Positions 19,412 through 57,545 of a stretch of DNA of 64,000 nucleotides are shown here, one piece after another (position 1 is the first letter of the stretch; every line of letters begins with the position of its first letter). The stretch spans positions 15,467,135-15,531,134 of the forward strand of contig NC_135255.1 in NCBI RefSeq assembly GCF_964204865.1, given 5' to 3'. Origin of the DNA: Styela clava (lineage: Eukaryota; Chordata; Ascidiacea; Stolidobranchia; Styelidae). The notes beneath the pieces were generated by a model. The model was given only the letters and a program-made list of their open reading frames with translations, had not been told where the DNA came from and did not search any database. Position numbers and translations under genes: made by a program.

Positions 19412-20664
19412 CTTTGTCAATGTTCGAAAAACAATGTGTAAAGCGTTGAAAAAATATGGAAATGTTATTATGTGAGATGTAACAATTCGCTTAATTTATT
19501 TATAGTTTGCCATATGTGTTGAAACCGAATTTCATAGGACATACTGTTATGTCTGAACTTCGATCAGGCTAATTAACTTCTAATTGTGATCAGCTAGATT
19601 CTAAGAACGCTAAAACCATGAAACACATTTAATTTTTTGTATGAAGTTTTTGCAGTTTGTTTTCTTAAGCACGTCAATCAATGGGCATTTATGATCTTTA
19701 TTGTAATCGAAATGGCTTATACCAGGCATGTTTTTGCATTATATGATTTCTGAATATCTTTTTCATTTTAGATTTATGGGAGAAAATTCAATTTGAAACT
19801 TTCGCAATATTTGAATTTGATTCAGTGCTCAAATTTTTGTATCTAACTTGATTGTCAATTAATCATAACCCAAAATCTATTTGTAAATTTGATGCCCCAC
19901 TTCATTAGGGAGACAATATCTACCGTGCCCATATGCACCATACTGACCAATGATCTCTTTGTAATGCATTTGTCAGAGCAATAGAACTAGGTATAGTAGT
20001 ATATATCGTTCCCAAACTGCCTGATGAAGTCTTTAGAAAATTTACTATTTTTGATGCAGAGAAATTCCTAATAATGTGACATTCCTGCTAAGTCGTCTCA
20101 TTGTATCAAATATGGTGATCGCAATCTGGAAGTTGTTTTCTTATAATGTCTATACTGCAAATATGACAATGCTAATGATTGTGCTTTTTGATTTACAGTG
20201 GTCCGTTTATTTTACTATTTCAATTAAATGAATTAAAATCCGAAATTAATTGCTACAGTTGCAGTTGGACTCCTAAAATTGCGGAGACTATAACTGAAAC
20301 GTGAGAGCAATACATTTACAGTATTAGCGGGGTGGAATTCCGCATTCAGGCAATGTAGAAAATACGCATGACCTTCCTGTGCTCTCGCGTTATGGTCCGG
20401 TCATAGCATGACTTATTGATTTATAAAGGCTTGGAATAGTGAGTTTGAGTGTAGAGAGACTAATGGGATTGGTTGAATTAAAGTCTGTTAATCACTGTCT
20501 TTCGTGGTGGCCGTTTGCGAAATCTTGGGCGTATTTTCCATATTAAAGGGTTGTCAATTTATGATATCAAATCATTGTCGACTTAGGTCTTTGACTGGCT
20601 TATAAATTAGATAAAATGCTTTGGGAGATCATTGGTCATCGTCTCTTCATTATCATCGTTGCTG
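18421..20664. other. Convergent intergenic region between RhoGAP and SORD
   Basis: Holds the 3' flank of the RhoGAP gene, with AATAAA-like hexamers (for example near 19050), and AT-rich sequence up to the SORD stop codon. Up to about 19411 it is shared with the second copy at 37271-38281. I see no gene or RNA in it. Confidence 0.6.
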
Positions 20665-23600
20665 TCAGCAATTTATCATCACTTTTATCGCTCTCTGACG
20701 ACTGTCAGCTGCGACTTCGAAAGCCTTTTCCGATTCTTGAAGAGTAAACCGATGGGTAATGAGTTTACTAACGTCAATTGCTCCTGAAGACACCAGTGAA
20801 ATCGATTGAGGGTAACTGTAACGAGAAATCACAAATTTAAAAGTCAAATCGTGTTAAATGCTCTAAGACAAGGATGCGCGACCTGTGGCCCTCGGGCCAA
20901 CAAGGAAAACTGTGCGGCCCGAGGAGAAGTGTCAATTTTAATGGTGTGTGGCCCGCGAAACGAGTTTTTAATTTAGTTCAATCTGGTGCGTGCGGGTAAT
21001 TCCAATCCCTTCGCGATGCAAAGCCTATACCTGAGTCCGTTTCATTATCTATGCATATGACGTTACGATGTCCCGACAACTAGCTTGTGCGAAGCGAACA
21101 ACGCATGTCACAAGATCAATAATCAAAATTTTTGTGCCTGCGCATAATATAAAGCCTATGTTAAATGAAGGTGCTGCCCACGGTTTTACCCATCTATTTG
21201 TATCTGGTCCCCCGTATTGAATGTTGCAAACCCATATATACTCTTAAGACACAGGTTGGCAACCCACGGCCCGCGAGACGGATGCTTCACTGAATTATAG
21301 TAACAAAACAGCTGCTTTGACGATTATATTTTTCACGTTACACAATTCATTGTGAGACGCGTGTAGACTAAATTATATTATAATCTAACAAGTATAAAAT
21401 TCACAATTACTCGTTTATTGAGGTTATAATTAGACAAATAGCAACAAAATGCAGAAAAGTTGATGCTAAGTGCAAAAGGTTCAATGGCGCCGAAAATGCA
21501 ATGCAATGAGGAAATAAATCTATATTCTATTTGAGAGATGTATCACTGCTTCATTTGTATTATAAAATGTATCATCCGTTCGGTTTTAAACTTTCTAAAA
21601 ATATGTGCGGCCCGCCAATGACTTGCAACCCTTATTTTGGCCCGCGAGCGACAAAAGGTTGCCGACCCCTGCTCTAAGAGAATGTATTAACTTACTTATT
21701 GGCGTATCTGAAAACACCTTTAATGTCGACTTCCTTAGTAGCAGCGAGAACGATAGGTATTGAAGGACTGAGAGATCCCCGACCGACGAGAATTACAGAA
21801 CCTCCAGGTCTTGTAACCTGTGAATAAAATATGCTGGAAGAGCTTTGCTTTAGCGAGAGAATTCAGATCAAAGTAGGCAGATGAAAGAATAGGTAAGGCG
21901 CTTAGAAATCAGGCATATAACAATCTTTACCGCCATCTGCGTTTGCCGTAGAAATTTATTTTGAGCACATAATCATATTTCGAAAATTAATATAATCCAT
22001 ATGAAATAAAATTACGACGTGTTCTCATCAGTAACTCGCAAGTAGGCAACACTATATTTGCGAAATTGAAAGTAGTTAGCTGTAAAATTAGCTGCATTAT
22101 CGATAATTGCTCATTGTTAATTGAGAATTTTTTTTCTCCCCAATCATGATAATTTTTTCGAGCAACCGCAAGCTCCGTACAAATCTGTATATTGATTTAG
22201 CACGAGAAAATTTAGCACGGTGAAACATTACAACTTATTTTACTAACGTGTATTCCGGTAGCTAAACTGCTATCGGCACCACTGCATTCTAAGCTTGAGT
22301 GCGCTCCCAAATCGGATCCTAAAATTTCCAAAATGTCATCCGCCACTTTCGAAGGATCTTTTGAGGCTTCCAATGTAGCGAAATAAGTTTTGTTGGCCGC
22401 TCCAAGGCTTTTCGCAAATGCCAGCCGTCCTTCGTCGATATCTGTTGGAAAGTATTGAGAAATAAAAAAATCAAGTCAGAATTTGAAAATTCCGCCATAG
22501 CAAACCAAATCAGCTTAATAAACGTAGGCGTATGATTGTAGCAAATCCTAGGAAGAAAAGTATAACCAGAATTTTTTTTTACAAAAATCTATTTTGTTTT
22601 AGTTCGGTTTCTTATAAATGTATAACAGTTCCAACGGAACAAAAGTATCCGACCTACAATACATATATTTGAAGCTCCAGAGTTTTTAGCGACAAGTCCA
22701 CATAGAATCCCAATCGGCCCTGCGCCAAATATAACAATAGATTGCCCTAATCCAATATTTGCTCGTTCACATGCATAAACAGCGACACTCAACGGTTCCA
22801 ACATTGCGGCTTCCTCAGTCGTTATGTTGTCGGGAATTCTTTAATAAAACAAACAAAATATATGATAAGAAAAAGCTTCCAATTTGAAAACTGTATTCAT
22901 ATATTTCAGATAATATTATTTTGCCGACTTTGTTCAAATCTTGATTAATTATCATAATCAGATGGGGTTCTTTTAAAATTATGCCTGTTCGGTCTACATA
23001 AAACGATCCAGAAATATGGTTGTGATACTTAATGGTGGTGTTGACCATTCATCACTAGGGATGGCGGAATCGAGTCCGGATTCGATTACAGAATCGATTC
23101 TTCGCGGAATCGACTAGAATCAATTCCGATGCACCGGAATCGATTCTCGAGTTTGAAACTTAGATTGCAAACAATGTAATTTATAATATATATATTATAA
23201 ATATCGCCAGTAGGCTAACGTTTATTTATTTTAAAAATCTCTGTGGGTTCTGAGGGATTCGTTTTTTTTTGTGCGGTTTTGTCTCATGTGGCAGATTGGA
23301 AACCCATACTACTTAGTTTCGGCCTTCTTGTCCGTCCAGAATTTGAACATCGCTGTCTTGCTTGATTTCATATGGTATTGCTTGGGTGGGTATATTTCTT
23401 CGGTAATATGTCGAGGAATCGAGATTCGGAATCGGATAAGAATCGAATACTTGTAAGTACTCATACTTGGCATCCTTATTCATCACTAAACTGAACCAAA
23501 ATATTGTCATTTTACTTGAGGAAAAGCGTATGAGATGGATTATGTTCGCGCTGGCAGTCTGTTACGTCTTCCAGTGATGAATCAAAGTAATATCGTAATA

Positions 23601-25218
23601 AACACACGAGCTTTAGATTAAGATATCACATCCTTGCCATTATTTCAGTCCAACGCCAATAACTAATATCACTATTAAATAGCTTACTTGTAACAAAAGT
23701 CAGCGTCGTGGACGTAATAATTGCAGAGATTTCCGTCAACCGGCGGAGTCGCACAAAATCTCATCTTCTTGCATAAATTATATCTTCCACCCTGGCATAT
23801 TTCACACGATTTACATGGAACGCCCGGTTCAATAGTTACTCTATCTCCAATTTTTAAATGTTTCACACCACTACCAACAGAAGTAACAACACCAGCTGCT
23901 TCATGACCGATAACCATCGACTTGCCGTTCAAGCTGAATCTACCACATTTTCCATATGCCCAATATTTTAGATCTGATCCGCAGATTCCAACGGAAGATA
24001 TAGAGATTAACACATCTGTAAATGGAATATATAATGTAACATATTTTGACTACATGAGCAAAGCCTTTGAGATCTACAACCTATACACAATAGCCAATAG
24101 TAATGATGGTTTTGGGTGGCGAAAAGAAACAAGAGGCGGTTCGATGATCATCACAACATTTTAAGAAGGGGTTCGCCACTGGTTTTATCCGTATTTTGTC
24201 TTTCTTGTTTCAACAATGAAATCAGGCTAAAATTATGTGCTCCTATTTATAACTTTCTACTGTTAAGAATTTGGATATATTTGATTGGTCAAAATAGGAA
24301 ATAATATCAACTTTGAGTGCTAAATTTATATGCCTTCCTATTATTTAAATGAAAAATTCGCAATGCGTCAAATTGAAAAATATTGTCCACTCACCGTTTG
24401 TCCCCAAAGTAGGAATATCCCTGTGTTCCTGTAATGAAAAAAATTACTGGGCACGAAATGAATATGAATGAATAAAATGTATTGTTGTAAAAATTGCTTT
24501 ACTTCGCAAATAATGAGTCAATGGATTTCAAAGTTTTTAAAAGCTATTGCTTTTATTTTTCCAAAGTTTTTCTTTGTCATATTAGGATCGATAATTCACC
24601 TACAATTTTCCAGCGAATATTACGTCGCCACGTGACCTCATGTCAGATTAGTCCGCCATATTTTCGACAACCCAGACACTCAACCGATGTGATGCTACGA
24701 AGGGGACTTTTGACTTGCAATTTCGATTTGGATAATCGAATAACAGATTTTCAGTGTAAGTCCAATGGATTACCGGTACGACGGCCACATTGGGACATAA
24801 CATTTCAAGAATACAATGCTAACGTTAGATACAACCAGGTAACTTCAATATAACCAATGCAATGCACTGCAATACTGGGTGCAATACTGGGCATGGTTGA
24901 TTCGCGAAAGAGTAATAAGTGGTTAACGAGAAAGCCTGTGGCAAGTATACTCCTCCATTTCATTTTAACAGATTAGAATTTGCACATTTCGTGGACAATA
25001 TTTATAGCTGGATTCCCAACAAAGCAATAACTGGTTCTAGTTGTTTGTAAAAGAATACGAAGAATACTATTCCGACCAACACAGCACATTGGACTGGTAA
25101 ACATGGAACGACAATATATCTAAAATAATAGTCAATTCAAATCATGACCACTTACCAGTCTTATTTTCCTGTTGCCCTCAACAATTGCTGCAAGATTGGT
25201 TCTTTCTTCAGAAGACAT
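20665..25218 (-). CDS. SORD: Sorbitol dehydrogenase (L-iditol 2-dehydrogenase), complete
   Basis: Cytosolic NAD-dependent enzyme of the polyol pathway, oxidising sorbitol to fructose. Seven exons on the minus strand: 25218-25156, 24428-24395, 24015-23688, 22838-22654, 22441-22248, 21817-21696 and 20815-20665. Every border is GT/AG and the frames join to 358 residues, against 357 in human SORD. Catalytic zinc ligands are visible at C44 (GICGSD), H70 and E71 (GHEA). The Rossmann motif GAGPIG is in exon 4, and the C-terminal part has [11 protein letters not shown] and THRF. Unlike mammalian SORD it keeps a CxxCxxCx7C set (C100, C103, C106, C114), which in related alcohol dehydrogenases binds a structural zinc. 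It lies tail to tail with the RhoGAP gene. Several introns carry hAT-type insertions. The first exon and upstream flank are duplicated at 38937-38999. Confidence 0.95.
20872..21240. mobile_element. hAT-like non-autonomous element in the last SORD intron
   Basis: Starts CAAGGATGCGCGACCTGTGG after the flank CTCTAAGA and ends near GTTGCAAACCC. It shares an internal stretch (GCTTGTGCGAAGCGAACAAC) with the elements at 25458-25805, 39238-40305 and 61151-61495. No coding region. Confidence 0.65.
21254..21667. mobile_element. hAT MITE, CAGGGGTCGGCAACC family
   Basis: Left end CAGGTTGGCAACCCACGGCC; right end GGTTGCCGACCCCTG, followed by CTCTAAGA. It is about 414 bp with no ORF. The outermost layer of the nest at 26452-31527 belongs to the same family in reverse orientation, and a degraded piece lies at 45155-45460. 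The flank CTCTAAGA also precedes the neighbouring element at 20872. Confidence 0.75.
23057..23479. mobile_element. hAT MITE rich in GAATCGAT motifs, SORD intron
   Basis: Starts AGGGATGGCGGAATCGAG and ends near CTTGGCATCCTTAT. Both sides carry the 8-bp target duplication TCATCACT (23049-23056 and 23480-23487). The interior repeats GAATCGATTC and related palindromes. A second copy in reverse orientation is at 27325-27867. Confidence 0.85.
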
Positions 25219-26450
25219 CGCGACGTATTGATAGATTAGAAAATGCTAGCATACTACAGTCCGTGAAACAAATACATAATAGTCGTTGCGATAGGTTTGT
25301 TTGACTTTCTATAATATGTTAGAGTTATAGCAAACACCGTGAAAGAGCTGACGAGGGATGGCGAACTTTAGTCGAAACACCAACAGACTTGTATGCTTTG
25401 CAAGTCATTTTACCGCATCAGCTAATAAAAACTAAAACCTCTTACAACACTTTACCACAGGGGTGTGCAACATTTAATACATGGGGGGCCGATACAAATA
25501 ACAGAGTGAAACCTCTATTTAACGTAGGCTTTCGAGTAGTTTCAGCGTAAATATATACTACTACGTTTCAGGCATAAAAATTTTGGCTATTGATATTATG
25601 ACATGCGTTGTTCGCTTCGCACAAGCTAGCTGTTAGGGCATTGTGACGTCATAGACTTAGATAATAAATTTGACTCTAGTATAGACTGAAACGGGATTAG
25701 AATTACTAGCACGTACCAGATTTAAATCAAAAACTCGTTTCGCGATTCGCGTAATTTTATCTTGTTGACGGCATTTGGTCCATGGGCGCAGGTTGCACAC
25801 CCTTGCTTTACTCCATACACGAACACTGGTTTCAAAAATGGGATATAAAATAGCCCCTAACAAAACCAAAAAGCATACTGGCATTTCAGTGACAGAATAT
25901 TGGTAATTATGCCTGCCTTAATTCAATCTAATAACAATCCAAAAATTGTCCTGGTCGTACCCAACAGCGTCTACATGTTGGTATCTGTTTATTCTGGTTT
26001 TTGGAAAAAATCTGAAAAAAGTGAGGCTGAGCCGAAAATAGTTTATTTAGAGTGGAATTACCCCTCAAACTTTTTGAAACCATGAACATATGTACCCAAA
26101 CTTTTTAGGTTCGACATATTTATGCTACTGCCTTTTTTCCACAAAAGAATTTAATAATATCGAGTGGGCCCACCAGAAATCGCCACTGGCCTGCAGTGCG
26201 AATTCTCAGGGCTTTGATGCCGTCCTGATTTTTACATTCTTTGTATTTGAGGTGTATCCTTGCTTTGTCTTATTTTATCCCGAGGATAAACATAATAAAA
26301 AAAAAACTGAGTACACAATTAACGGTGGCTCGTTGGGCTTTCCCATTTCTTTACTTTATTATTTATTTAGCTATAATCACTCTTGTCTCTTGCAAACTAA
26401 TGAAAATCTGGATTTTGAGTAGCACCAAAATAATATATATATATCGTACG
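24523..26450. repeat. Segmental duplication block B, copy 1
   Basis: Repeated at 38282-40960. It contains the upstream flank and first exon of SORD plus a hAT element (25458-25805) that is present in both copies and so predates the duplication. The block is cut at 26451 by the nested transposon cluster. In copy 2 the sequence continues without it. Confidence 0.9.
25458..25805. mobile_element. hAT-like non-autonomous element upstream of SORD
   Basis: Begins CAGGGGTGTGCAACATTTAA and ends GCGCAGGTTGCACACCCTTG, an inverted pair. It is flanked by CTTTACCA and CTTTACTC, a slightly mismatched 8-bp duplication. The shared copy at 39238-40305 was later split by another insertion. Confidence 0.8.
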
Positions 26451-27307
26451 ACAGGGGTCGGCAACCTTTTGTCACTCGCGGGCCAAAAGTAAGGGTTGCA
26501 AGTCATCGGCGGGCAGTGTTCCCTCCAAGAAAATTTCACACTGCGCAAATGTTCTTTTTACTGAGCAAGACTATTTTAAGGCTGAGCAGAATCCTGAATT
26601 ATTTGCGAACTTTGAGAAATGTTACAATAGTAGCCTATCATATATTATCGGAATGCGAACAAAGCACACATTTAACTGAAATAGCTTCTCCTTCTTTTCG
26701 TGCTTTTTATATAATCTCAACATTTTTGTTGTTGAGATATCAAAATCAGGGTATGGAATTTTGCTTGTCTTATGCTCTGCGTAGGGTTACCATATTTTCT
26801 TGACTTCAAAGCGGGACGCCTCCATAGACACGACCTCTTAGCTGTGATCCTGTAACTTTACAGTTTTCAATTTTACTACATAGGCCTACATTTGAAGCCA
26901 TATCCCGGCTGTCTTCATTGACCATATTGTCATCGAGAGTTCATGCGCATATTCTCTGCCTAAATATCGGGTTCTGTTCGAAAAATAGAAAGGAATAGAC
27001 GCTAACGATACAAGTGTAGATTTTTTTGTACAGCAAAGGGAATAAAGAATAATGAAATAGTCTGCTGTTAAGCATTGGGAATTTACTTATTCGCCCAAAC
27101 ATGCTTTTCTGTAGATAACACCTTCAAAAAGACGTTGTTCAATGTTACATTTACATGAACGTCCGAACAGGACCAATTAGAATTGATTTCACATGTGATA
27201 AGTTCGCTAACAATGTTAGCGGGAAATAACGAAACAAACAAAATAACGCATTCGCTTTCGATAACCAGGCTAGCGTTGCGCTACACAGCAACAACAGTAA
27301 CGAGAAC

Positions 27308-30300
27308 AGGGACGGACTAAAAGTTAAGGATGCCAAGTATGAGTACTTACAAGTATTCGATTCTTATCCGATTCCTAAATTTTCGATTCCGATTCTCGAT
27401 TCCGAATCTCGATTCCTCGACATATTGCCGAAAAAATATACCCACCAAGCAATACCATATGAAATCAAGCAAGACAACGATGTTCAAATTCTGGACGGAC
27501 AAGAAGGCCGAAACTAAGTAGTATGGGTATCCAATCTGCCACATGAGACAAAACCGCACAAAAAAAACGAATCCTTCAGAACCCACAGAGATTTTTAAAA
27601 TAAATAAACGTTAAAGCCTACTAGCGATATTTATAATATATATATATATTATATATAGTGAAGTTTGCGGTGTCGTAGCAACTCAACATAGCAGTGAAGC
27701 AGTTTATACATATATATGTGTGAAGAAATTGCCACAAAACGTTACACATTGTTTGCAATCCAGGTTTCAAACTCGAGAATCGATTCCGGTGCATCGGAAT
27801 CGATTCTAGTCGATTCCGCGAAGAATCGATTCTGTAATCGAATCCGGACTCGATTCCGCCATCCCTACTAAAAGTAGGCACTTGCAAATTAGGCACTTAT
27901 TTAGGCACTTTGGAAAAAAAGTAAAAAGGGCGTAATACCTTTTAAAAACATAATTAATTAGTTAAAAATGGTCAAATTAAATGTTGAAAACGCAAATTGC
28001 AACGGGCAAACTCATAACAATATTAAAAACGTAGTATTAAAGGCAGTCGCACGCGCTTGGTCACCACATATGCTAGGCACATATTTAGGCACTTCGAAAA
28101 ATAAAGAAAATGGCAATTATCACTAATAAAAGACAGAGACATAAACATATTACCCACACTGATTAGCCTGGGTAAATATCCAATAGATGCACTTGAGTCT
28201 AGTACTGGAATTTAGAAATAATAAATTGTTACCGGTAGGCACTTATTTAGGCACTTCGGAAAAAAGGTGAAATGGACGTAGTAACTCCTAAAAAGGTATT
28301 GAATTAGTTCAAAATATTTAAATTAAATGTTGAACGCGAAAATTGCAACAGTTAAATCCAATAACGATTTTTAAAACGTAGTATTAAAGGGAGACGCACG
28401 CGCTCTGTCACCACGTATGCTAGGCACATATTTAGGCCTTTCGAAAAATAAAGAAAATGGCAATTATCACTGATAAAAGACAGAGAAATAAAAATATTAC
28501 CCACACTGATTAGCCTGGGTAAATATCCAATAGATGCACTTGAGTCTAGTACTGGAATTTAGAAATAATAAATTGTTACCGGTAGGCACTTTTTAGGCAC
28601 TTATTTATGCACATCGAAAAAAAGGTGAAATGGGCGTAATAACTTTTAAAATGATAATTAATTAGTTGAAAATTGTCAAATTAAATATTGAACACGCAAA
28701 TTGCAATAGGTGAACCGAATAACAATATTTAAAACGTAGTATTAAAAGGAGTCACACGAGCTCGGTCACCACATATGCTAGGCACATATTTAGGCACTTC
28801 GAAAAAAGAAGAAAACGGAATTATCACCAATAGAAGACAGAGAAATAAAAATATTACCCACACTGATTAGCCTGGGCAAATATCCAATAGATGCACTTGA
28901 GTCTAGTACTGGAATTTAGAAATAATAAATTGTTACCGGTAGGCACTTTTTTAAGCACTTCGAAAAAAAAAGGTGAAATGGACGTAGTAACTCCTAGAAA
29001 GATAATGAAAGTTTTATAATGCGTTTAACTAGTCCCATCAATCCCATTTTCTTTATTTTTCGAAGTGCTTAATATGTGCTTAGCATATGCGTTGATAGAA
29101 CGCGTGAGCCTCCTTATAATACTACGTTTTAACATTATCATTGGGTTTACTTGTTGCAATTTGCATATTAATTTTTTAATTTAAATATTTTAAACTAATT
29201 CATTATCATTTTAAAAGTTATTACGCCAATTTTACGCATTTTTAGAAGTGTCTAAATAAGTGACTAAAAAGTGCCTACCGGTAACAATTTATTATTCTCA
29301 AATATCACTACTAGACTCAAGTGCATTCATCGGATATGCAAATAGGCTAATTATTTTAACTAATATTTTTATTTTCTGTATTTTTATTCATGATAATTAC
29401 CATTTTCTTTATATTTCGAAGTGTCTAAATATGTGCCTAGCATATGTGGTGACAGAGCGCGTGCGTCTCCCTTTAATACTATGTTTTAAAAATCGTTATT
29501 GGGTTTACCTGTTGCAATTTCCGCGTTCAACATTTAATTTAAATATTTTGAACTAATTCATTATCTTTTTAGGAGTTACTACTTCCATTTCACCTTTTTT
29601 CGAAGTGCCCACCGGTAACAATTTATTATTCCTAAATTCCAGTACTAGACTCAAGTGCATCTATTGGATATTTGCCCAGGCTAATAGGTGTGGGTAATGT
29701 GTTCATTTCTCTGTCTTTTATTAGTGATAATTGCCATTTTCTTTATTTTTCGAAGTGCCTAAATATGTGCCTAGCATATGTGGTGACAGAGCGCGTGCGT
29801 CTCCCTTTAGTACTACGTTTTAAAAATCATTACAGTATTGGGTTTAACTGTTGCAATTTCCGCGTTCAACATTTAATTTAAATATTTTGAACTAATTCAT
29901 TATCTTTCTAGGAGTTACTACGTTCATTTCACCTTTTTTTCCGAAGTGCCTAAATAAGTGCCTACCGGTAACAATTTATTATTTCTAAATTCCAGTACTA
30001 GACTCAAATGCATCTCTTAGATATTTACTCAGGCTAATCAGTGTGGGTAATATGTTTATTTCTCTGTCTTTTATTAGTGAATATGCCATTTTCTTTATTT
30101 TTCGAAGTGCCTAAATATGTGCATAGCATATGTGGTGACCAAGCGCGTGCGACTGCCTTTAATACTGCGTTTTAAATATTGCAATTGAGTTTGCCCGTTG
30201 CAATTTGCGTTTTCAACATTTAATTTGACCATTTTTAACTAATTAATTATGTTTTTAAAAGGTATTACGCCCTTTTTACTTTTTTTCCAAAGTGCCTAAA

Positions 30301-30352
30301 TAAGTGCCTAAAAAAGTGCCTAATTTGCAAGTGCCTACTTTTAGTCCGTCCC
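27308..30352. mobile_element. Nested cluster layer D: long foldback hAT-like element, copy 1
   Basis: Starts AGGGACGGACTAAAAGT and ends with the exact inverse ACTTTTAGTCCGTCCC. Perfect 8-bp target duplication ACGAGAAC at 27300-27307 and 30353-30360. The interior is two inverted arms around about 29010-29040. Each arm has about three tandem units of roughly 345-360 bp carrying GTTACCGGTAGGCAC, GATTAGCCTGGGTAAATATC and repeated AGGCAC hexamers. There is no coding capacity, so it must be moved by a transposase from elsewhere. Sister copy at 53375-56159. Confidence 0.9.
27325..27867. mobile_element. Nested cluster layer E: hAT MITE inside the foldback element
   Basis: Same family as 23057-23479 in reverse. 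It lies just inside the left end of layer D with the perfect 8-bp duplication CTAAAAGT (27317-27324 and 27868-27875). It is the innermost and so the youngest layer of the stack. Confidence 0.9.
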
Positions 30353-31544
30353 ACGAGAACATGTTCGTGTAATATGCTGGATGGCTGAACGCCAAAGCGG
30401 GACTTTTGCCTGACTTGTCGGGACGGCGGGACAAGACGCTGAAAAGCGGGACTGTCCCGCCTAAAGCGGGACGTATGGTAAGCCTAGCTCTGCGTGATAT
30501 TTTCCTTGGCGACAAATCTTTTCTATGCTCTTTAAAAATTCAAAGGCGCACTTTTTGCTTCGCCGTGAATGTGACAATTTAGTGTATTTTGACATACGAC
30601 TTTGCGGTACAATATTGATGAATTCAGCACTATCTATGGAAGGCTTTATTTCACTTGGCGGTTTAAAACTTCACTCTCTTCAGCGGTTGGCACTGTGGTC
30701 AAAAAGTTTGAACAACTTCCTCTTGCTTCCACGTTTCGCTTCTGAGTTAATGCATCTAGTGAGTCAATGTGTTTTTATGATTTAAATGGCGTTTTAAATA
30801 GTCAACTTCCCATTCCACGATTTGCTTTTTCAAATTTACTATCAGGTGCCACTTCACATGTCAGATAAACTTCACTTCACATGTCCCGCGCTGGCACACA
30901 TAAATAAAGGTGCTTGAGCGTGACAGACACGTATGTGACATCACAATAACCAGTGATCACCAATATGCGCGTAGTCGTTGCGTGAAACATAGAATGAGAA
31001 ATCTAGTTAAGCGTTAATAAAAATGATATATGAAATATAAGCCACGCTTTAAAAACAAAACTGCGCGAGAATGAGATTTTACTGCGCAAATGTTCTGATG
31101 GTACTGCGCAGTTGCGCAGCTTAGAGGGAACCTTGTTGGCGGGCCGCACATATTTCTAGAAAGTTGAAAACCAAACGGATGATACTTTTTGTAATGAAGA
31201 TCAAGCAGTGATATATTTCTCGAATAGAATATAGATTCATTTATTCATTGCATTGCATCTCAAAAATTCCATTTGACAATTTTCGGCGCCAGTCAACCCT
31301 TTGCACTTAACACCAACTTTTCTGTTTTGTTGCCATTTGTCTAATTATAATTAAATTATAGACTCATTAAACGAGTCATTGTGAGTTTTAGACTTGTTAG
31401 ATTATGATATAATTTAGTCTGCACGCGTCTCACAATAAATTCTGTTACGCAAAGAATATAATCGTCAAAACAGCTGTTTTGTTACTATAATTCAGTGAAG
31501 CGTCGCGGGCCGGGTTATAGTACTCCGCGAGCCGGATCCTTCGG

Positions 31545-31688
31545 CACCAACTAAGACAAGCAAAAGTATCGAAACAACCAACAAACCACACCAATCGAAA
31601 TACTGGCTTTATTTCCTGTTGTTTGTGACGTCACTATTGGCGAATTTGTTCTTCATTCTCGCATATATCATCTTAATTGCATTGTAAC
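31545..31688 (-). pseudogene. 144-bp fragment of MINPP1 last exon at a duplication breakpoint
   Basis: Matches 42233-42377, the region encoding the hydrophobic C-terminus of the phosphatase. It begins after the normal stop codon position and ends where RhoGAP intron sequence starts. This is the junction that joins the end of one duplication unit to the start of the next. Confidence 0.85.
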
Positions 31689-32769
31689 TTAGTGTTGTCA
31701 TAGTAACTGTTGTCTTACTCTAAGCTTGCTGATTTTTTCCTGTCGTTGCTATGCAATACTCACTATAATCAAAACTGAATTCTCACAGGAGTTTCCACAG
31801 AGCAAGCGCAATGGAAATGTTGATAAATTTCATGATCTTACAGGAAAAGAACCGACAAAAACGATTAAAAGAAAAAGCTCCGAAAAACGGTATCCACGGC
31901 AAACGTTTGCTATTGCTATCGGCATTAATCACACAGTTTCCGAATATTTTAATCATGGACACGACGATATTATACAAGAATTGGATCACAAGACACCACT
32001 TTTCGTGGAAAAATGCGTACGATACATTGAGCATTTTGGTATGTTAGATTTAAGTGTTTAATTATCACTGGTATAACAGATATATGTTTAAACGCATGGA
32101 AGTATTTTTTTAAGGTTTCAAATGGCAAATTTTTTCTAATTAATAATCAAACTTCTCCTTCCGAACATATCGTATGATATCAGTAGCTACATTTACAGGC
32201 TTTATCGGCTTTATCTGAACCGAAAAGTGCGAATAAGCTTCCTTCATGCGTAAAAAAGATATTTCTCAAATTTGTGAACGTGATAGAAAATTTACTCATC
32301 TTTTGTATATGACGAATGCATCATCTTAATTAATTTAGTTCTTTCTGATGCACTTGCTTACGTGACAGGTATTTGGGTCATTCAGTCTATCATCATATGA
32401 CAATTGACTCAATAAATTTGACAGAATACACTTGCATTACGTGGAGTTGGCTTTGATCGGTTATGTTATTCATGGAATGTCTCATTGATGTTTTCTTCTT
32501 CGTTTTTATTGGTTTTTGGTTATTGATTTTTTTTTTAATTTGTAAGAATCTTGACTGAATGGCTTTACAGAATTCCAGCGAACGCGCAAGAAAGAGAAAA
32601 CATTTTGCGAAAATTTGACGAAGGTGATTTTTTATGCTTGTCTCAAATATTCTTTCTGATTTGAACCAAATATTGCATATAAATTTCAATTATTATTTTA
32701 CAATTAAGCCTTATCATTCCGGTAAAGAAAAACTAGAATGTCACATTTCACTCCTGTGCCAGAAAAATT

Positions 32770-32940
32770 TTGGGTAATCCCGTAATACCGTGTACCAGGT
32801 TAGGGTTAGGCCATAATTTTATTCCATTCCTTATTTTAGTTCTATTCTGAGTTCGGGGACTGCCTGTGGATATACCCTTTGCCCATAGGCGAACAAAAGT
32901 AGTTACCTCCATATTGGTACACATACTTCTGGAGCGCCTA
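32770..32940. mobile_element. MITE in block A copy 2 only
   Basis: Contains GTAATACCGTGTACCAGG on the left and TGGTACACATACTTCTGGAG on the right. Same short family as 41012-41240. Copy 1 of the block lacks it. Confidence 0.55.
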
Positions 32941-33293
32941 ATTATGATTATAGTTTAGAAGTAATTATTTATACTGACCCCATCTATCTAGTCTTACATG
33001 CACTGTTTTAAAATGTTCTAATAAACATCCATATCTGGGCCACTAGTCAGCGTCGAATTTTGAGCTTCTTAATTTGTTTCAATTATTAATATCAAAGGTA
33101 TATATTTTCTCAACTGCAATCCTGTACTTTACACAGATGTAAAAATTTCTTTTATGAATCATATTACATTAGGATATAGAAAATCTATTATGACATCAAA
33201 ACACATTTTCAAAAAATTGAATTTTTCCATTGTGCAATATACAAAATATGACATCACAAATTTTTAACATTTAATTATAAACACGTTTACCTA

Positions 33294-34597
33294 TTAACTC
33301 TTTGAACTCTGACGGCTCTGAGCGAAGTTACTCGCTCACCCTGAAGGTTCGCAGCGCCGTATTGGTAGAACAATAAAATAAGTCTAAATACTGGCTATTT
33401 GGCACGCTTGTAACTTTTTACCAATTATAGGTAGCACGTTGTGAGACATTTCAATCGAAAGGAAATTTTATCGTGCATTCAGAATGTATTTTTCATTTTA
33501 AAATACATTTTGTCAAAATTAATAAAATTGACCTCAATCTAACAGTCATTTTTCTGCATGTATGTGAGTTTTGGCTTGAAATTTTGTTAGTTTGGTACAA
33601 AATATACTGCCAATATTTGATGTTCATAAAGAGTTTTTTATAAGCTTTTTGTTGATATTCGAATTACTATTGTGGCTGCCATATAACCAATTTTATATTT
33701 AAATATTTAATTGTGTAACATTGTATCGGGTGAACAACATCGATAAGCGGCCATGACGCACTGATTACGCAGCTACGCAAAAGCCGATCACGTGACTACC
33801 GTCATGAAGATGTTGATAAGTACGTTCGGAACGTATTGCGTGGCAAAATGCGCAAGATAACTTTCACGACGACGTTCTCAGCGGGACATCGGTCGCCGAG
33901 TTTCGATATGATATTAACCCTGTTTGGATTGAAGTACCGACGTCGAGTAATGCGTGCAGTAATAGCGAAGTGAAGTTAATATCGTCATATAAAATTTCAC
34001 GTGGAAAATCTTTTATTCGCCCATGAGTATTTGTTCAAATATCAACCAAAATAAGTACTTGCCTGCTCTGCAGATCAAAATATCTGATTTTACGAATGTT
34101 AGGCGAAGCAAGTGGATGGAATAATATCTGAGAGCACTAATAATGCAGAAAGAGCAACTCTTATTCCAACAAGATCATATGCGTCGCCAGAACTAGATAC
34201 CCCACCGCAAAACGCCAGTTCTAATAATAGATGCGTCGTATGCAGCAAAATTTACATTATTGCCAAAAAAACAATCCAGCTGCTAAAGACAAAGCGTTGC
34301 TGAAACGATGCGAGACAGTATATAAGTACAAATACTGTAATGAGTACCTATGTATAGGTAACGAAACCAACAACTATTGGTATAACTGGCACAACAAAGT
34401 GCAATATTGGATTTAGTCTGCCTAATATTTTCATGTTCTTCATTGTTCCGGGCACAACAAAGTGCAATATTCAATTTAAAATTTTTAGCAAGCAGTCTTG
34501 TTCATATTGCGTATACGTAACCACAACTTCATGGGGCTTGAGCGGGCAGTCAAAGTCAAAGCGTAGTGTGAATTTTGAATGCGTAGCATCGGGTTAA
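33294..34597 (+). mobile_element. Degraded piggyBac-like transposon
   Basis: The interval lies between two TTAA tetranucleotides (33294-33297 and 34594-34597), the piggyBac target. The left end reads TTAACTCTTTGAACTC; the right end inverted reads TTAACCCGATGC. Near 34220-34400 the translation gives RCVVCSK and, in a shifted frame, KYCNEYLC, resembling the cysteine-rich C-terminal domain of piggyBac transposases. The frame is broken and the catalytic part is not recognisable, so it cannot code for an active enzyme. It occurs only in copy 2 of the duplication. Confidence 0.6.
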
Positions 34598-35195
34598 TTA
34601 ATTACTTCCTGCGGACATTTAAATAATAACATCTCGACGTAACGTTATTGCGGATATCGTCACGTTTAGGTGCATTTGCGTAATATGCGTAAAGTTGTGC
34701 GTGACGAGACGTTGCCTCTCTTCAATGAGAACATCAATTTGACGCAGCGTCGCTGTTAAATCTACAGATAATCTAATATATTTGGTCATAAAATTTGAAT
34801 GGCTCATCGTAAAATCGTTTTGGATACGTATATAAAAAGCTATTCAAATTCTCCACATATATTGCCGATTGAATATGTGGCTATTTAGGCAAGAAGTCGA
34901 AATTCTTTATAATAAATATTTGTTATCATACAATAATTTCATACGCACTTTCAAATTGCCAATTTTACTGAAACATCGTATATTAGAGCACCGATCATCA
35001 CAATATAATTAGTCCCAATAACAAGCTTTCATGCAATATAAAATTTATTTAAATACTCATTGTGGTTCTTGAGATACGAGATCATAAAGTTGATTCCCTC
35101 CGACACGAAAAACAAGCCGGTAAACCGGCTTGCCGGGGCACAGAGCGTACTCAAACAAGCCGGTAAACCGGCTTGCCGGGTTCAAGCGGTTAACA
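34598..35195. other. Unidentified insert next to the piggyBac remnant
   Basis: This sequence has no counterpart in block A copy 1. It has slightly higher GC stretches around 34620-34800 and a 62-residue minus-strand ORF without a domain I know. It ends with the palindrome pair at 35112-35180. It may be another decayed element. Confidence 0.4.
35112..35180. repeat. Paired 26-bp repeat containing a perfect palindrome
   Basis: The 26-bp repeat at 35112-35137 returns at 35155-35180. Each contains AAGCCGGTAAACCGGCTT, an 18-bp inverted repeat, followed by GCCGGG. The two lie 43 bp apart start to start. It sits 56 bp before exon 8 of the RhoGAP duplicate. Confidence 0.9.
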
Positions 35196-38100
35196 CCTAT
35201 GATCATGAGAAAAGATTTTATTTTATTTGTTTCAGATAATACCATTGAGCTCTTTTCTATGTCAGTCACTGTGCAAACAATAGCTGGATGTCTGACCTGG
35301 TTTTTCAGCCACAAAAATCTTCCAGAACCTCTCATTCCGCACAACCTTCATGAAGAATTTGAAGAAGCCATAAGTAAGCTGAGGATAATGGCGTAGAAAC
35401 AAATCGATTTGCAAATTATTCGGTTCGTATTAGGCTAATTTGCAAATAATTGAATCATGTTGTAATGTAAAGCAGTGCTTTCCAACAAATACTAAATCGA
35501 TCAAATATACATTTTTTATATTGATCATTTGCATATTGTTATATTTTCACATATTTATTTGTAATGTTTCCATTTTGGTGCAGCAAAACTTCCATCAGAT
35601 GGACGATTCGAAGAGGGTTTTCACTTAAATTCTGATGAAAGTTGATTACTTCAGATCAATAATAATTATATTTTGGGTATATTATGTGTGAATTTCTGAA
35701 AAGTTTTATGTAATTTCGATTTTTTTGATATTATTCGTAAAAAAATGATTAATTTTATGGATGTAAGCTATAACTGAAAATGTTCAAAAATTGATCTCAA
35801 TTATTTACATTTTAGGATAATCAATTTAGGTCTGATTATCATATGTAGACAGAATGTCTCAAAGTAATTCCTATTTGCATAAAACATGCAATACATGTTT
35901 TTGGTCCTTTTTTATGTTTTGTTGAATGTGTTTTTTTAGTCTGGCTATTTCATTGCGGTAAACAAAATAATCAATCGATAAATTTGGAGCTTCATTCTCG
36001 TATACATTTAGCCTCACGCAAAGGATAGAAACGTGCAAATTTTCTTGGAATTACTATTCTTTTGATAGAATTGTACATAGGTATTTGCAAATAGTAAATT
36101 TCAGTGTTACCCTTGCAAATAATTTATTGTAGCAATCAAATAAAAATGTGTAGGATTGAAACAAAATATTCTGCATTAACCATTTAAAAATGCAAAATGT
36201 TCTATTACGCTTCTTCGTTAATTAGACTTCTTCGTAATTTTAATCACACTAATCTAACATTTCTCCTTTCACAGATATGCCTGATCCATCACTCCGAAAT
36301 TTATCTGTTCGAGGAGTCATAAGAAAATTACCTAAATCTCACTATGCTACTTTTAAATATATCTGCAAATATTTGAACACGTAAGTCTGATTTTTTATGA
36401 CATCTTGCTCTACTAAGAAGCTGTGTTTATGACATCTTGCTCTACTAACAAGGAAAAGTATTTTCTAGTCGAAAATAGCAGCTGAGCCTAAGAATATGGA
36501 TGTTTCTGACCATTGGCATTCTATTTGTGATTTGAGTAAGCAATTGCCAAGTCTCGCTTTCTAACTTCTATAATTGTAAACAATACCATTCGCCAATAAA
36601 AACCGCCAAGAAATAAAGACGTTCAGGTTTACTGACTGAGCTGGTGGAAATAAGCTATTGCACTCTTGACTGGATATTATTTTATGTGCTTTTAACAAAG
36701 CTCAATAAAACCAGTCGCTGCTGGGTGGGGGGTTACTATATTTTCGAACGACTGGAAATTTGCGACTCAATTTATTAAATCCAAGGTTGGGTGACAGGTG
36801 TGGGATTTGAATCAGGAATTTTTGTCCCACGATGCCGACATGTGTTAACACAGTGTTGTTAATTGTAATTTAGTTGTACATCTGGCAACTAGTTTTTTCC
36901 AAGATGACTGAGTCAGTGATGTCATCAGTTGACTGATCATGATATCACCACATGTGGGAGTGACGTGACCGCCTGCTCCCTAGAGTTGTTGCTCAGTTCT
37001 GTTGGTTTTTTCACTAAAGTAACTTTTGGCTATTTATATATTTATACTAAGTTATTAACAAATATTCTAATTTGTTTCAGTGTCTGTCAGCATGAGAGTG
37101 AGAATAATATGAACAGTGAAAACATCTCAATCTGTTGGTGGCCGACATTATTTAGACCAGATTTAGACGATATGAAATCGGTTTTGTTCGGACGACCTTG
37201 TTTGAAGGACGTTTTACTTGCTTGCATTGTCCAATGTGGTTTTATTTTTTACAACAAACCCGAAGTTTGAATTCGAGAACTTTAATTCAAGTAACAATGA
37301 TAACTGTTGCTTTTTTGTTGACTTGAACGTCAACCTTGTATTGTCGAACGCAAGAGGTCATCTTCAGAGATGATTGTCTCTCGATGATGTCTAACGCTAA
37401 CCCATTATCCGAATTATAACGTTTCGAGATTCGGAAGTAAATTCGATTTTGAACTAAGATCGAGCGTTGAGAAGAGCAAAATAGAAAAACTATTTGTTCT
37501 TCGTAGTTTCAAGCGTTGTATTTCCATATTATGATGTCATAAAGCTGCTTCGCAAACATAATTCTTTCGACTGCTTTATTTTGTTTTAATTATCGTCAAG
37601 TAGCAACAGCATATTTGTTATTGCTGTGCTGTAGGTTGATAGCGAAACACTGTCTAATTAATATTCTTATTTTGTTCCTGGTTTTGTTCAAATCATCCAA
37701 TTATTGATATATTGTATTTGTTTGGATCATTTATAAAGTATGATTTGAGGAATTAATCAGAACATCAAGCAGGGATGTCCACAACTCAATTTTTTTTATT
37801 CCCTTACAGTTTTAAAAAAAAAAAATTATCACATTTCTGATTCCCAATAAACTTTGATTTTCAAGTAATGTTAAGTATTGTGGCATTCCAAATAAAGTAT
37901 GGTATGATAAAAATTCAGTACATTCTACAAAATCCCTCACTTTGTTGAGTGCAATTTATGATACAACGATTTTTGTTTCAAATTCGCACATATATATCAT
38001 ATTTTTTTGCTCGAAATTGCTGAAATAGGTACACAAATCATAATATGTGTCTTACTATGATAAACATTATTACTATTCGTTAATATAAGTATTGACAAGT

Positions 38101-38936
38101 CAATTTCGTTGTTTGTTCAAATTGTCTCGCATCCCTGCTTGCAACATGCTCGAATCGGCGCTTAAAGTTTTCCAATAATTATGCCGTGTGGACTATTGTC
38201 GTTAAAAATCAATTGACAATAATCTTATTTCTTTCTTCACACCATTTTTTTCTGCTTGTTGAGAAAAACTTTCTTATTACCGGATTTCAAAGTTTTTAAA
38301 AGCTATTGATTTTATTTTTCCAAAGTTTTTCTTTGTCATATTAGGATCGATAATTCAAGTACAATTTTTCAGCGAATATTACGCCGCCACGTGACCTCAT
38401 GTCAGATTAGTCCGCCATCTTTTCGACAACCCAGACACTCAACCGATGTGATGCTACGAAGGGTCTTGACTTGCAATTATAACAGATTTTCAGTGTAAGT
38501 CCAATGGGCTACCGGTACGACGGTTACAGTAGGACATAACATTTCAAGAATTCAATGCTAACGTTAGATACAATCAGGTTACTTCAATATAACCAATGCA
38601 ATGCAATACTGGACATCGTTGATTCGCGAAAGAGTAATAAGTGGTTAACGAGAAAGCCTGTGGCAAGTATACTCCTCCATTTCATTTTAACAGATTAGGA
38701 TTGGCACATTTCGTGAACAGTATTTGAAGCTGGATTCCCAACAAAGCAACACCCGGTTCTAGTTGTTTGTAAAAGAATACTATTCCGACCAACATAGCAC
38801 ATTGGACTGGCAAACATGGAAAGTCAATATATATAGTCAAATAGTCAATTTTTTTTTTATTTATTAAAAGGAGAAATAAAAATCACTTCGCAAAATAGCA
38901 TTTCGTGCTATTTCAATTTAAATCATGACCACTTAC

Positions 38937-53342: not shown

Positions 53343-53374
53343 TCGTAGACTTATTGCTGATTGGACATTTTTGC

Positions 53375-56159
53375 AGGGACGGACTAAAAGTAGGCACTTG
53401 CAAATTAGACACTTTTTTAGGCACTTATTTAGGCACTTTGGAAAAAAAGTAAAAAGGGCGTAATACCTTTTAAAAACATAATTAATTAGTTAAAAATGGT
53501 CAAATTAAATGTTGAAAACGCAAATTGCAACGGGCAAACTCAATAACAATATTTAAAACGTAGTATTAAAGGCAGTCGCACGCGCTTGGTCACCACATAA
53601 GCTAGGCACATATTTAGGCACTTCGAAAAATAAAGAAAATGGCAGTTATCACTAATAAAAGACAGAGACATAAACATATTACCCACACTGATTAGCCTGG
53701 GTAAATATCCAATAGATGCACTTGAGTCTAGTACTGGAATTTAGAAATAATAAATTGTTACCGTTAGGCACTTATTTAGGCACTCGGAAAAAAGGTGAAA
53801 TGGACGTAGTAACTCCTAAAAAGGTAATGAATTAGTTCAAAATATTTAAATTAAATGTTGAACGCGAAAATTGCAACAGTTAAATCCAATAACGATTTTA
53901 AAAACGTAGTATTAAAGGGAGACGCACGCGCTCTGTCACCACGTATGCTAGGCACATATTTGGGCACTTCGAAAAAAGAAGAAAATGGCAATTATCACTA
54001 ATAAAAGACAGAGAAATGGAAATATTACCCACACTGATTAGCCTGGGTAAATATCCAATAGATGCACTTGAGTCTAGTACTGGAATTTAGAAATAATAAA
54101 TTGTTACCGGTAGGCACTTATTTAGGCACATCGAAAAAAAGGTGAAATGGGCGTAATAACTTTTAAAATGATAATGAATTAGTTGAAAATTGTCAAATTA
54201 AATATTGAACACGCAAATTGCAATATGTGAACCGAATAACAATATTTAAAACGTAGTTTTAAAAGGAGTCACACGCGCTCGGTCACCACATATGCTAGGC
54301 ACATATTTAGGCAATTCGAAAAAAGAAGAAAATCGGAATTATCACCAATAGAAGACAGAGAAATAAAAATATTACCCACACTGATTAGCCTGGACAAATA
54401 TCCAATAGATGCACTTGAGTCTCGTACTGGAATTTAGGAATAATAAATTGTTACCGGTGGGCACTTCGAAAAAAGGGTGAAATGGACGTAGTAACTCCTA
54501 GAATGATAATGAATTAGTTCAAAATATTTAAATTAAATGTTGAACGCAAAAATTGCAACAGTTAAACCCAATAATGATTTTTAAAACTTAGTACTAAAGG
54601 GAGACGCACGCGCTCTGTCACCACATATGCTAGGCACATATTTAGGCACATCGAAAAAAAAAATGGGAATAATCACCAATAAAAAAAAGAAAATAAAAAT
54701 ATTAGTCAAAATGATTAGCCTGGGACTGGGTGAATATCCAATAGATGCACTTGAGTCTAGTAGTGGTATTTGAGAATAATAAATTGTTACCGGTAGACAC
54801 CTTTTACCGTGTTTCCGCGAAATTAAGACAGTGTCCTATTTCAAATTTCTTCCTAAAATTACCACTAGGGCTTTTTTTCGGGGGATGTCTTATATTTTAA
54901 TTTATCAAAAACAAAATTACAAAGTAAAGAATTACGATATTTTCAAATATGCAAAATATAAAAACCGATATCATTGGGTTTACTTGTTGCAATTTGCATA
55001 TTAATTTTTTAATTTAAATATTTTAAACCAATTCATTATCTATTTAAAAGTTATTACGCCCATTTTACGCATTTTTAGAAGTGTCTAAATAAGTGACTAA
55101 AAAGTGCCTACCGGTAACAATTTATTATTCTCAAATATCACTACTAGACTCAAGTGCATTCATCGGATATTCAAATAGGCTAATTATTTTGACTAATATT
55201 TTCATTTTCTGTATTTTTATTCATGATAATTACCATTTTCTTTATATATCGAAGTGTCTAAATATGTGCCTAGCATGTGTGGTGACAGAGCGCGTGCGTC
55301 TCCCTTCAATACTACGTTTTAAAAATCGTTATTGGGTTTAACTGTTGCAATTTTCGCGTTCAACATTTAATTTAAATATTTTGAACTAATTCATTATCTT
55401 TCTAGGAGTTACTACGTCCATTTCACCTTTTTTTTTCGGAGTGCCTAAATAAGTGCCTACCGGTATCAATTTATTATTTCTAAATTCCAGTACTAGACTC
55501 AAGTGCATCTATTGGATATTTACCCAGGCTAATCAGTGTGGGTAATATTTTTATTTCCCTGTCTTTTATTAGTGATAATTGCCATTTTCTTTATTTTTCG
55601 AAGTGCCTAAATATGTGCCTAGCATATGTGGTGACAGAGCGCGTGCGTCTCCCTTTAGTACTACGTTTTAAAATCATTACAGTATTGGGATTTAACTGTT
55701 GCAATTTTTGCGTTCAACATTTAATTTAAATATTTTGAACTAATTCATTATCTTTCTAGGAGTTACTACGTCCATTTCACCTTTTTTTTCGGAGTGCCTA
55801 AATAAGTGCCTACCGGTATCAATTTATTATTTCTAAATTCCAGTACTAGACTCAAGTGCATCTCTTAGATATTTACTCAGGCTAATCAGTGTGGTTAATA
55901 TGTTTATTTCTCCGTCTTTTATTAGTGAATATGCCATTTTATTTATTTTTCGAAGTGCCTGAATATGTGCCTAGCATATGTGGTGACCAAGCGCGTGCGA
56001 CTGCCTTTAATACTGCGTTTTAAATATTGCTATTGAGTTTGCCCGTTGCAATTTGCGTTTTCAACATTTAATTTGACCATTTTTAACTAATTAATTATGT
56101 TTTTAAAAGGTATTAAGGCCTACTACTAAGGCCATAAAGGCCTACTTTTAGTCCGTCCC
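53375..56159. mobile_element. Long foldback hAT-like element, copy 2
   Basis: Same family as 27308-30352. Starts AGGGACGGACTAAAAGTAGG, ends CTACTTTTAGTCCGTCCC, with perfect 8-bp duplication ATTTTTGC (53367-53374 and 56160-56167). The left arm shows four ~350 bp units (motif GATTAGCCTGG near 53690, 54036, 54382 and 54713) and the right arm three (near 55141, 55490 and 55848 as ACTAGACTCAAGTGCAT). Another short sequence is inserted near the centre at 54806-54972. Confidence 0.9.
54806..54972. mobile_element. Short insertion at the centre of foldback copy 2
   Basis: ACCGTGTTTCCGCGAAATTAAGAC and CTAGGGCTTTTTTTCGGGGG resemble a widespread short animal repeat with CCGAAAATAAGAC ends. Copy 1 lacks it. 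The right end and target duplication are unclear. Confidence 0.45.
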
Positions 56160-56167
56160 ATTTTTGC

Positions 56168-57536
56168 AGAAATAAACGGGGAAATTGATGTTGCGGCAAA
56201 CATTTTCGAGGCCTTTGAGAAAATTGAGGCCTTCTTCTGCCTGATGTAATTTAGTAGTTTGTGGACGCGTAGGACTTCTTAACTTGCGCCTAACATTGTC
56301 AGAATGCCGGATCACATTCGCATGGTGCTAGCTCACAGCATCACACTCGTGTGACGCCACACTCGCCATCCAAGTGATCCAACACTGTTTTTGTTAGGCC
56401 ATCGATAGTTGTTAGGCCATATTGAGGTGACTGAGCTTGCTGTTGCATTTGCGTGGGATTATCAGCTATTAGGGTATATATATTATCAGAGCAACCAAGT
56501 ATTTTTATGGAATAACGTTTATGAAGTGAATATAATAGTTGGTTCACCGCAGCTTGAGTGCGGGCTTGCTGGCTTGGGTAACTCATTTAAAATCGATATT
56601 ATTTTACGTTTCGCTTGTTGTAGGAGTTGATGTGGCACATTCAGTAGAGACATTCCTGTCGAAATTTTGGAATAATTTATTAGAATATTGTGCGTGCTTC
56701 TTACTCTTTATATTTGCGCCGATTTGTTTGTTTAATTCTTGTGTGTAATGCTGCAATCGGTGAAAGGTAAAATTAGGTACGGTAAATTATACTTATACTT
56801 ATAAAATTACCAGATTCTGAGATTACTGAATTGTTTATATGGTGTACCGGTACCGGTACTCTAATCCATCAATTTTATTTTAGTAGACTACCGGTACTGC
56901 TGTACTAAATTGCATTTCTACGGAAACAAGGTTCTTGAAAAGCAGCCATCGATGTATGTCAGTATGTAGAGACTAACGTCTGAACGTATGTTTTACTAGG
57001 ACTGAATATTTTTTATTGTCATAACACAGACACTGATTGCATTCAGGTGAAAGACCTGAAGATGGAGTTTGAAACTCCGCCAAACCTTTTACTGTTTTAG
57101 TTTAACTACTACAGTACTAGGCTATTATATTAGTGTGCAGAGAAAAGAAGAAAAATATTGGATTTGTATCAACTCCTAGCATACGGCTTGCGGTTATGTA
57201 AAACTGCATATGCAGTGTCCGATGTCACACATAGGGTGAGAATATATGGCAGACATTACGATATTTCACTCTTCAGCTATTTGTTCTAATTTAAGCCAGT
57301 ACTGCATTAATAACCTTGAAACTAATTGTTCTATTTTCGTGACTATTCATTGTCTAATTAACTGTTACTCAACTATTTGGTTCCAAGGTAAATTGAAATT
57401 TATAGGTAAAATACTGAAAATGTGAAATTAACATAGTGCAGTAGTGTTTCTGTGATTGATGAACTTCATCGAACAAGTATAGACTGACAGATAATATCTT
57501 CTCCTGCCATTACATTTGTAAATGTTATTTTTTTAG
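56168..57536. other. APEX2 upstream region
   Basis: No gene seen. It holds a hairpin GGAGTTTGAAACTCC at 57064-57078 preceded by CCTGAAGAT, several ACCGGTA motifs near 56850-56900, and at its end a pyrimidine run with AG at 57535-57536, 9 nt before the APEX2 start. Confidence 0.5.
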
Positions 57537-57545
57537 TTTTAAAAT
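57522..57545 (+). promoter_or_regulatory. Splice-acceptor-like site just before the APEX2 start
   Basis: AATGTTATTTTTTTAG is followed by TTTTAAAAT and the ATG at 57546. The gene is otherwise intronless, so this acceptor would serve a spliced leader or a distant untranslated exon. Confidence 0.55.

Follow-up and report, generated by a model that had tools for sequence, protein, structure and literature searches.

Two loci in a 64,000-nucleotide stretch of genomic DNA (contig NC_135255.1, positions 15,467,135 to 15,531,134; hereafter the window) are occupied by foldback elements, copy 1 and copy 2, that are very probably non-autonomous members of a Mutator-like element (MULE) family, with Rehavkus as the most likely branch. 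The two copies have the same ends, 9-bp target duplications and inverted arrays of ~347-bp units; a long form of the family elsewhere in the genome carries coding frames, and a junction found in copy 1 recurs in a second insertion, L014. The family is new, while its design is already known, the nearest published element being Rehavkus-1_TC of Tribolium castaneum, compared here by description only.

Architecture of the two window copies

Tandem Repeats Finder and self-alignment resolve both copies into inverted arms of ~347-bp tandem units, delimited here at the TACCGG boundary. The first-pass annotation of this DNA had described two such copies with common ends, as mobile foldback elements made of unit arrays and lacking a transposase, and this description is confirmed for both. 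Its unit counts of 3+3 and 4+3 hold for full units; partial units are also present. Copy 1 has three full units plus 71 bp on the left and three plus 246 bp on the right, while copy 2 has four plus 7 bp and three plus 142 bp. The difference in unit number sits centrally, where the junctions differ. The target duplications had been read as perfect 8-bp repeats, but are 9 bp long (ACGAGAACA and ATTTTTGCA), the elements starting one base later. With the 9-bp reading the ends are symmetric; the 8-bp reading leaves one end with an unpaired A. The features are as follows (window positions).

27300..27308, unstranded: copy 1 left target duplication ACGAGAACA, 9 bp
27309..30352, + strand: copy 1, whole element, GGGACGG...CCGTCCC, 3044 bp including the nested 543-bp element of the next line
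27325..27867, unstranded: hAT-type miniature inverted-repeat transposable element (MITE), 543 bp, nested in the copy 1 left end; 8-bp duplication CTAAAAGT at 27317-27324 and 27868-27875
27868..28235, + strand: copy 1 unit L1, remainder (first bases at 27309-27324)
28236..28582, + strand: copy 1 unit L2, 347 bp
28583..28939, + strand: copy 1 unit L3, no clear right-arm partner
28940..29009, + strand: copy 1 unit L4, first ~70 bp only, running up to the deletion junction
29009..29010, unstranded: copy 1 deletion junction, the same in L014
29032..29277, - strand: copy 1 unit R4, partial
29278..29611, - strand: copy 1 unit R3, probable mirror of left unit 4
29612..29964, - strand: copy 1 unit R2
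29965..30352, - strand: copy 1 unit R1 including the right end
30353..30361, unstranded: copy 1 right target duplication ACGAGAACA, 9 bp
53367..53375, unstranded: copy 2 left target duplication ATTTTTGCA, 9 bp
53376..56159, + strand: copy 2, whole element, 2784 bp
53376..54793, + strand: copy 2 left arm (L1 53376-53764, L2 53765-54110, L3 54111-54457, L4 54458-54793)
54795..54958, unstranded: copy 2 core, 164 bp, common to 14 family copies including copy 2 (shortened in L020)
54959..56159, - strand: copy 2 right arm (R4 partial to 55110, R3 55111-55459, R2 55460-55812, R1 55813-56159)
56115..56139, unstranded: copy 2 right-end patch; AAGGCCTACT starts at 56115 and 56137, with a short filler between
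56160..56168, unstranded: copy 2 right target duplication ATTTTTGCA

One end of each copy is altered. The copy 1 left end is interrupted 16 bp in by the nested MITE, which has a sister at 23056-23478 (8-bp duplication TTCATCAC; MITE ends TAGGGATGG / TAAGGATGC) and, among the matches listed, at least seven further genome places of about matching length. At the copy 2 right end the outermost 20 bp are retained and the part of the terminal inverted repeat (TIR) immediately inside them is replaced by the patch, which resembles the product of templated break repair. Also in copy 2, the R3/R2 (55429-55490) and R2/R1 (55780-55840) junctions share variants absent from copy 1, e.g. ACCGGTATC, a pattern expected if, once the two copies had separated, the sequence of one unit junction had overwritten that of the other.

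Genome census of ends and target duplications

A search of the 376.6-Mb assembly (379 contigs) with the terminal 20-mer GGGACGGACTAAAAGTAGGC, allowing up to two mismatches, found 111 places, compared with none for the reversed control. Forty stretches were fetched around listed places, which together with the window copies gave 32 two-ended elements. Nine were left out of this count: L010, L017, L018 and L019, with only one end in the fetched stretch, and the single ends L044-L048. It was found that an exact 9-bp duplication abuts the ends in 24 of the 32 two-ended copies and an 8-bp duplication in none; hence, the elements are not hAT, and the hAT-type movement proposed at first pass does not survive the census. 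Mismatched flank pairs agreed in 0/992 comparisons. No position of the duplication has a fixed base, the ninth being A in 7, C in 9, G in 6 and T in 2 (n = 24). An exact 9-bp repeat next to extra end bases was seen in L014 (5 bases; its own repeat is TAAATGATT), L015 (2), L016 (1) and L034 (1). The terminal 20-mer had no match in viral contigs.

The family spans a wide range of sizes, down to short forms of 275-512 bp (L038-L043). L029-L030 is a two-ended 12-kb element (duplication CAAAATCTG) in which frames of at least 90 codons are present. Other elements lie in or next to members: L027 contains a gypsy-like retroelement (L027:4221-7740) with an integrase and an envelope-like frame, the latter weakly matching herpesvirus glycoprotein B (E=1.1e-7, below the Pfam cut-off), and in L018 a LINE-like element (long interspersed nuclear element; reverse transcriptase and endonuclease frames) lies at 1434-4376, where the second arm was expected.

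A long form with coding frames

L028 is a 9,089-bp element with the same ends and the duplication CACAACCAG. Unit arrays of 1,689 and 2,244 bp occupy its two ends, around a centre of ~5.2 kb, and its arms are inverted over 1,697 columns at 92.6% identity. Its minus strand holds two frames of 647 (P0001) and 375 (P0002) residues, overlapping in different frames. The core of L017 is 97.7% like that of L028, its frames being broken elsewhere.

P0002 matches the Pfam family Peptidase_C48 (Ulp1; E=6.5e-14) and, in the PDB, SENP2 (E=3.1e-11), with the peptidase residues H169, D186, Q235 and C241 in place. Near its end a C4HC3 pattern at residue 330 marks a possible PHD-like finger, with a weak PDB match to the Polycomb protein Pcl (E=0.025) and no Pfam PHD match. 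P0001 contains D282, D347, C367-x2-H370 (CTNH 367-370) and E461, the gaps between acidic residues being 64 and 113, as well as a SWIM-like CxC...CxH finger at 594. The residues tested in Muta1 of Aedes aegypti are D214, D283, H307, W401 and E419 (PMC5225508). The first gap (64 vs 68) and the distance from the second D to the H (23 vs 24 residues) are in good agreement. Relatives of P0001 were not found in viral contigs. We infer that P0001 is a MULE-type DDE transposase from its motifs, their spacing, the duplication length and the neighbouring domains.

Origin of the foldback forms

The left arm of copy 1 is 95.9% like the right array of L028. At the junction at 29009, the left side matches this array at 95% (ending at L028 position 7420 or, nearly equally, 8127), and the right side matches L028 1912-1760 at 96%, a segment made up of the innermost part of the left array and the non-unit DNA next to it. 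The same junction occurs in L014, an independent insertion on another contig, with sides at 96% and 98%. The junction common to both identifies copy 1 as the descendant of an internally deleted derivative. Both copy 1 and L014 are explained by a single deletion inside an L028-type element, whose product then transposed to two or more sites. L009 and L012 are partly deleted forms, in which one stretch of the L028 interior survives at 95% identity, with further stretches at 79-86%.

Over 2766 columns copy 2 aligns collinearly with L036 (94% identity), and all 14 cores of 60-300 bp that were compared, copy 2 counted, carry the 164-bp core. Copy 2 belongs to a second lineage, marked by this core. 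The possibility that the copy 2 centre is a private foreign insertion was considered and rejected, given its presence in 14/14 cores.

Unit relationships and the AGGCAC motif

Units at the same position in the two copies are 93-99% identical, with 23 differences in 1068 compared bases of the left arm and 40 in 1125 of the right. Within copies, L1 and R1 are 97% identical in copy 1; the copy 2 value is 91%, the outer end of R1 being patched there, and L2-R2 identity is 94%. Identity of R3 is highest with L4 of copy 2 (90-91%), lower with the unit-2 copies (86-88%) and lowest with L3 (80-81%), which leaves L3 seemingly without a right-arm partner. L4 of copy 2 is itself equally near unit 2 (90-91%) and R3. 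Each unit is a composite of two unlike halves, A and B, with only their first 28-41 bp in common, the B half being 161-163 bp long. The A halves are undecisive on the partner of R3 (94-96%), and a tree of A halves sets units 1, 3 and R4 apart from units 2, 4, R2 and R3. The B half favours L4 (R3-L4 87%, others 75-80%, for copy 1 R3 only). On these identities, left unit 4 is the probable counterpart of right unit 3.

The abundance of AGGCAC noted at first pass is real: 47 of the 57 window occurrences fall within copies 1 and 2, and each of these 47 points the same way with respect to its arm; every unit has two AGGCAC pairs. Scored against one reference unit, the motif shows no excess conservation (3368 of 5000 random placements were as conserved; 191 full-length units), because that reference unit has a private change. 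Scored against the majority base in the same 191 units, conservation is 0.959 vs 0.911, a value reached in 390/10000 random and 375/10000 GC-matched placements, in a unit alignment that starts at the motif itself. This slight excess hints that the AGGCAC repeats are candidate transposase-binding sites.

A recurring 57-codon frame raised the possibility of a unit-encoded protein. This was rejected: across all 13 full window units, changes by codon position number 24/28/26. Seven units picked for an open frame give a coding-like 21/13/43, which is due to the selection of units, and two of the 57-codon frames were scanned with no Pfam family match. As for RNA, 21-mers of the left arm recur exactly in the right arm in 505 of 1131 cases for copy 1 and 478 of 1405 for copy 2, and it is possible that a hairpin transcript would feed small-RNA pathways. 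An Rfam scan of the window gave no match.

Classification and alternative explanations

The features described agree with a MULE placement. MULEs have target duplications of 8-11 bp (PMC6446971) and TIRs with G/C at the first three positions (PMC13359780); the duplications here are 9 bp, the TIRs are long, as the L028 arms illustrate, and the ends start GGG. Rehavkus, described as close kin or outgroup of MULEs, has 9-bp duplications (Table 1) and a PHD finger (PMC6446971); here the same duplication length is found, and tandem unit arrays fill both arms, in line with a tandem (mini)satellite in or beside inverted termini. Long inverted arms with internal tandem repeats and a short centre are likewise those of a foldback element.

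Several observations weigh against this assignment. In P0001 the second acidic gap disagrees with Muta1 (113 vs 135), a V stands where Muta1 has a W 18 residues before the E, and no Pfam or NCBIfam transposase model and no PDB sequence matches the protein. The transposase and protease regions are split over two overlapping frames in L028 and over three in L017, so no intact transposase gene was seen; the left end of L017 is missing from the fetched stretch. Beyond a 27-bp edge the 164-bp core of copy 2 has no match in L028. Among the 32 two-ended copies, L035 has a 9-bp duplication with one mismatch, and L022, L041 and L043 have no 9-bp repeat.

A MULE outside the Rehavkus branch (e.g. Phantom/Muta), its satellite-built ends having arisen independently, is possible, if rather unlikely. 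Tm1 combines 9-bp duplications and foldback ends with a Phantom-like transposase, and foldback-like ends accompany different transposases (PMC3169594); short subterminal tandem repeats occur in 10 of 12 long-TIR Muta families (PMC5225508). Ulp1 is found in Mutator elements of hydra and lancelet, and Ulp1 with PHD in one hydra Ginger1; a figure legend of the same paper mentions an alignment of Ulp1 and PHD domains from Ginger1 and Mutator transposases (PMC2836005). Hence, the PHD finger may not single out Rehavkus. On the other side, the available text of PMC6446971 mentions PHD twice, each time for Rehavkus and beside 9-bp duplications, and Rehavkus-1_TC agrees with the present family in length and in having 164-bp satellite arrays in inverted ends (PMC10218199).

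It is very improbable that the unit is primarily satellite DNA picked up by transposons. L023:231-4064 has 11 left units, in which a 5-unit block (~1.75 kb) is repeated at 99.1% over 2,087 bp, and this repeat indicates that arrays do expand in satellite fashion. However, the outermost unit carries the transposon end, and a one-unit genome search found no free-standing arrays among the places listed, which form part of 202 matches (40 of 112 candidates scored) and all lie inside known elements as read from coordinates. The L023 block repeat is read as a recent unequal exchange and may mark the beginning of a satellite.

A Merlin-type element is extremely improbable. Merlin ends are 5'-GG with 8-9-bp duplications, and some have internal tandem repeats (PMC8101967), which would suit ends starting GGG and a 9-bp duplication. 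Against this, C-x2-H follows the second D at a MULE-like distance and a SWIM-like finger is present; the five frames of L028 and L017 also have no Pfam DDE_Tnp_IS1595 match, a weak argument as no Mutator domain was found either. The hAT-type foldback with 8-bp duplications and a one-base asymmetric end can be virtually discounted: both window copies do yield 8-bp duplications when AGGGAC is taken as the left end, the preceding C giving CAGGG, an end motif of hAT elements, and a genuine hAT-type MITE with an 8-bp duplication is nested in copy 1, but the census counts, the unfixed ninth base and the lack of a Pfam hAT domain in the same five frames all speak against it.

Proposed mechanism and implications

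For the MULE family favoured here, most likely of the Rehavkus branch, we propose the following model. The 9.1-kb long form, with inverted ends of 1.7 and 2.2 kb of tandem 347-bp units, would encode in its 5.2-kb centre a DDE transposase bearing a SWIM-like finger, followed by an Ulp1 SUMO-protease domain and the PHD-like finger. Internal deletion would remove the coding part and leave the two unit arrays facing each other, so that the element folds back. Deleted forms would keep moving, leaving 9-bp target duplications, presumably mobilised in trans by the L028-type transposase with the AGGCAC repeats as its binding sites, and unit number would shift by unequal exchange. A more speculative and rather doubtful extension is that the transposon is of Rehavkus type, with transposase, SUMO protease and PHD reader joined in a fusion, that the ~350-bp end units were selected as multiplied binding sites, that array-only deletion derivatives out-compete the autonomous form, and that L023 represents the first satellite step.

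Within one genome the family runs from a 9-kb element with coding frames, by way of partly deleted copies (L009, L012) and pure foldbacks, down to 275-512-bp forms, and the common deletion junction reveals a possible route to a foldback element. The family is suited to asking whether TIR repeat arrays bind transposase and, with L023, whether they seed satellite DNA. The two window copies alone looked hAT, a plausible misreading which the census corrects.

Other features of the window

A long tandem duplication relates 15067-26438 to 31681-40950, the larger pieces being mostly 81-92% alike. Exons that we read as sorbitol-dehydrogenase-like lie near 22592-24049 (ADH_N at 23684-24049, weak matches at 22592-22840). 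An open 565-codon frame at 57543-59240 has endonuclease/exonuclease/phosphatase and GRF zinc-finger domains and is APEX2-like.

Comparison with known systems

The first-pass statement that no described family has such a make-up has to be withdrawn: Tetris (PMC4079207) and Rehavkus-1_TC (PMC10218199) precede it. Galileo of Drosophila has comparable long, internally repetitive TIRs, with ~210-bp repeats of variable number (PMC3573991) that contain secondary transposase-binding sites (PMC3688188), but it belongs to the P superfamily. Tm1 of Meloidogyne and Muta1 resemble the present family as Mutator/Foldback elements with 8-9-bp duplications, a terminal motif with tandem repeats, and non-autonomous derivatives (PMC3169594, PMC5225508). 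Their repeats, however, are 12-15 bp compared with ~350 bp here, and no Ulp1 or PHD was encountered in the excerpts describing them.

Tetris of Drosophila virilis is likewise a non-autonomous foldback with tandem repeats in long TIRs: the repeats are ~220 bp, alleles with 3 and 4 repeats are known, and duplications are 8-10 bp (PMC4079207). It differs in that its transposase was not found and in that its repeats form satellite arrays of up to 66 copies, of which none was seen here among the matches listed.

Rehavkus is treated in PMC6446971, PMC13359780, PMC10218199 and PMC1634758. Its hosts are given as insects or annelids; the host here is an animal, judging from APEX2-like, Rad9 and IRE1-like kinase/RNase genes. 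Of telomere-type repeats, (TTAGG)6 and (TCAGG)6 had no match in the genome. A literature search, with Repbase Reports outside its range, returned no paper pairing Rehavkus with Ulp1 or a protease, and we do not claim Ulp1 as new to Rehavkus. Rehavkus-1_TC (satellite TCsat23) has inverted termini with arrays of a 164-bp unit, mostly 5 and 8 monomers (PMC10218199). By description, it resembles L028 in length (9.5 kb vs 9.1 kb), in the tandem arrays within inverted ends and in unit length, its 164 bp being close to the 161-163 bp of the B half; the present family differs in that its unit is a 347-bp composite of two unlike halves and in the presence of the Ulp1 protease.

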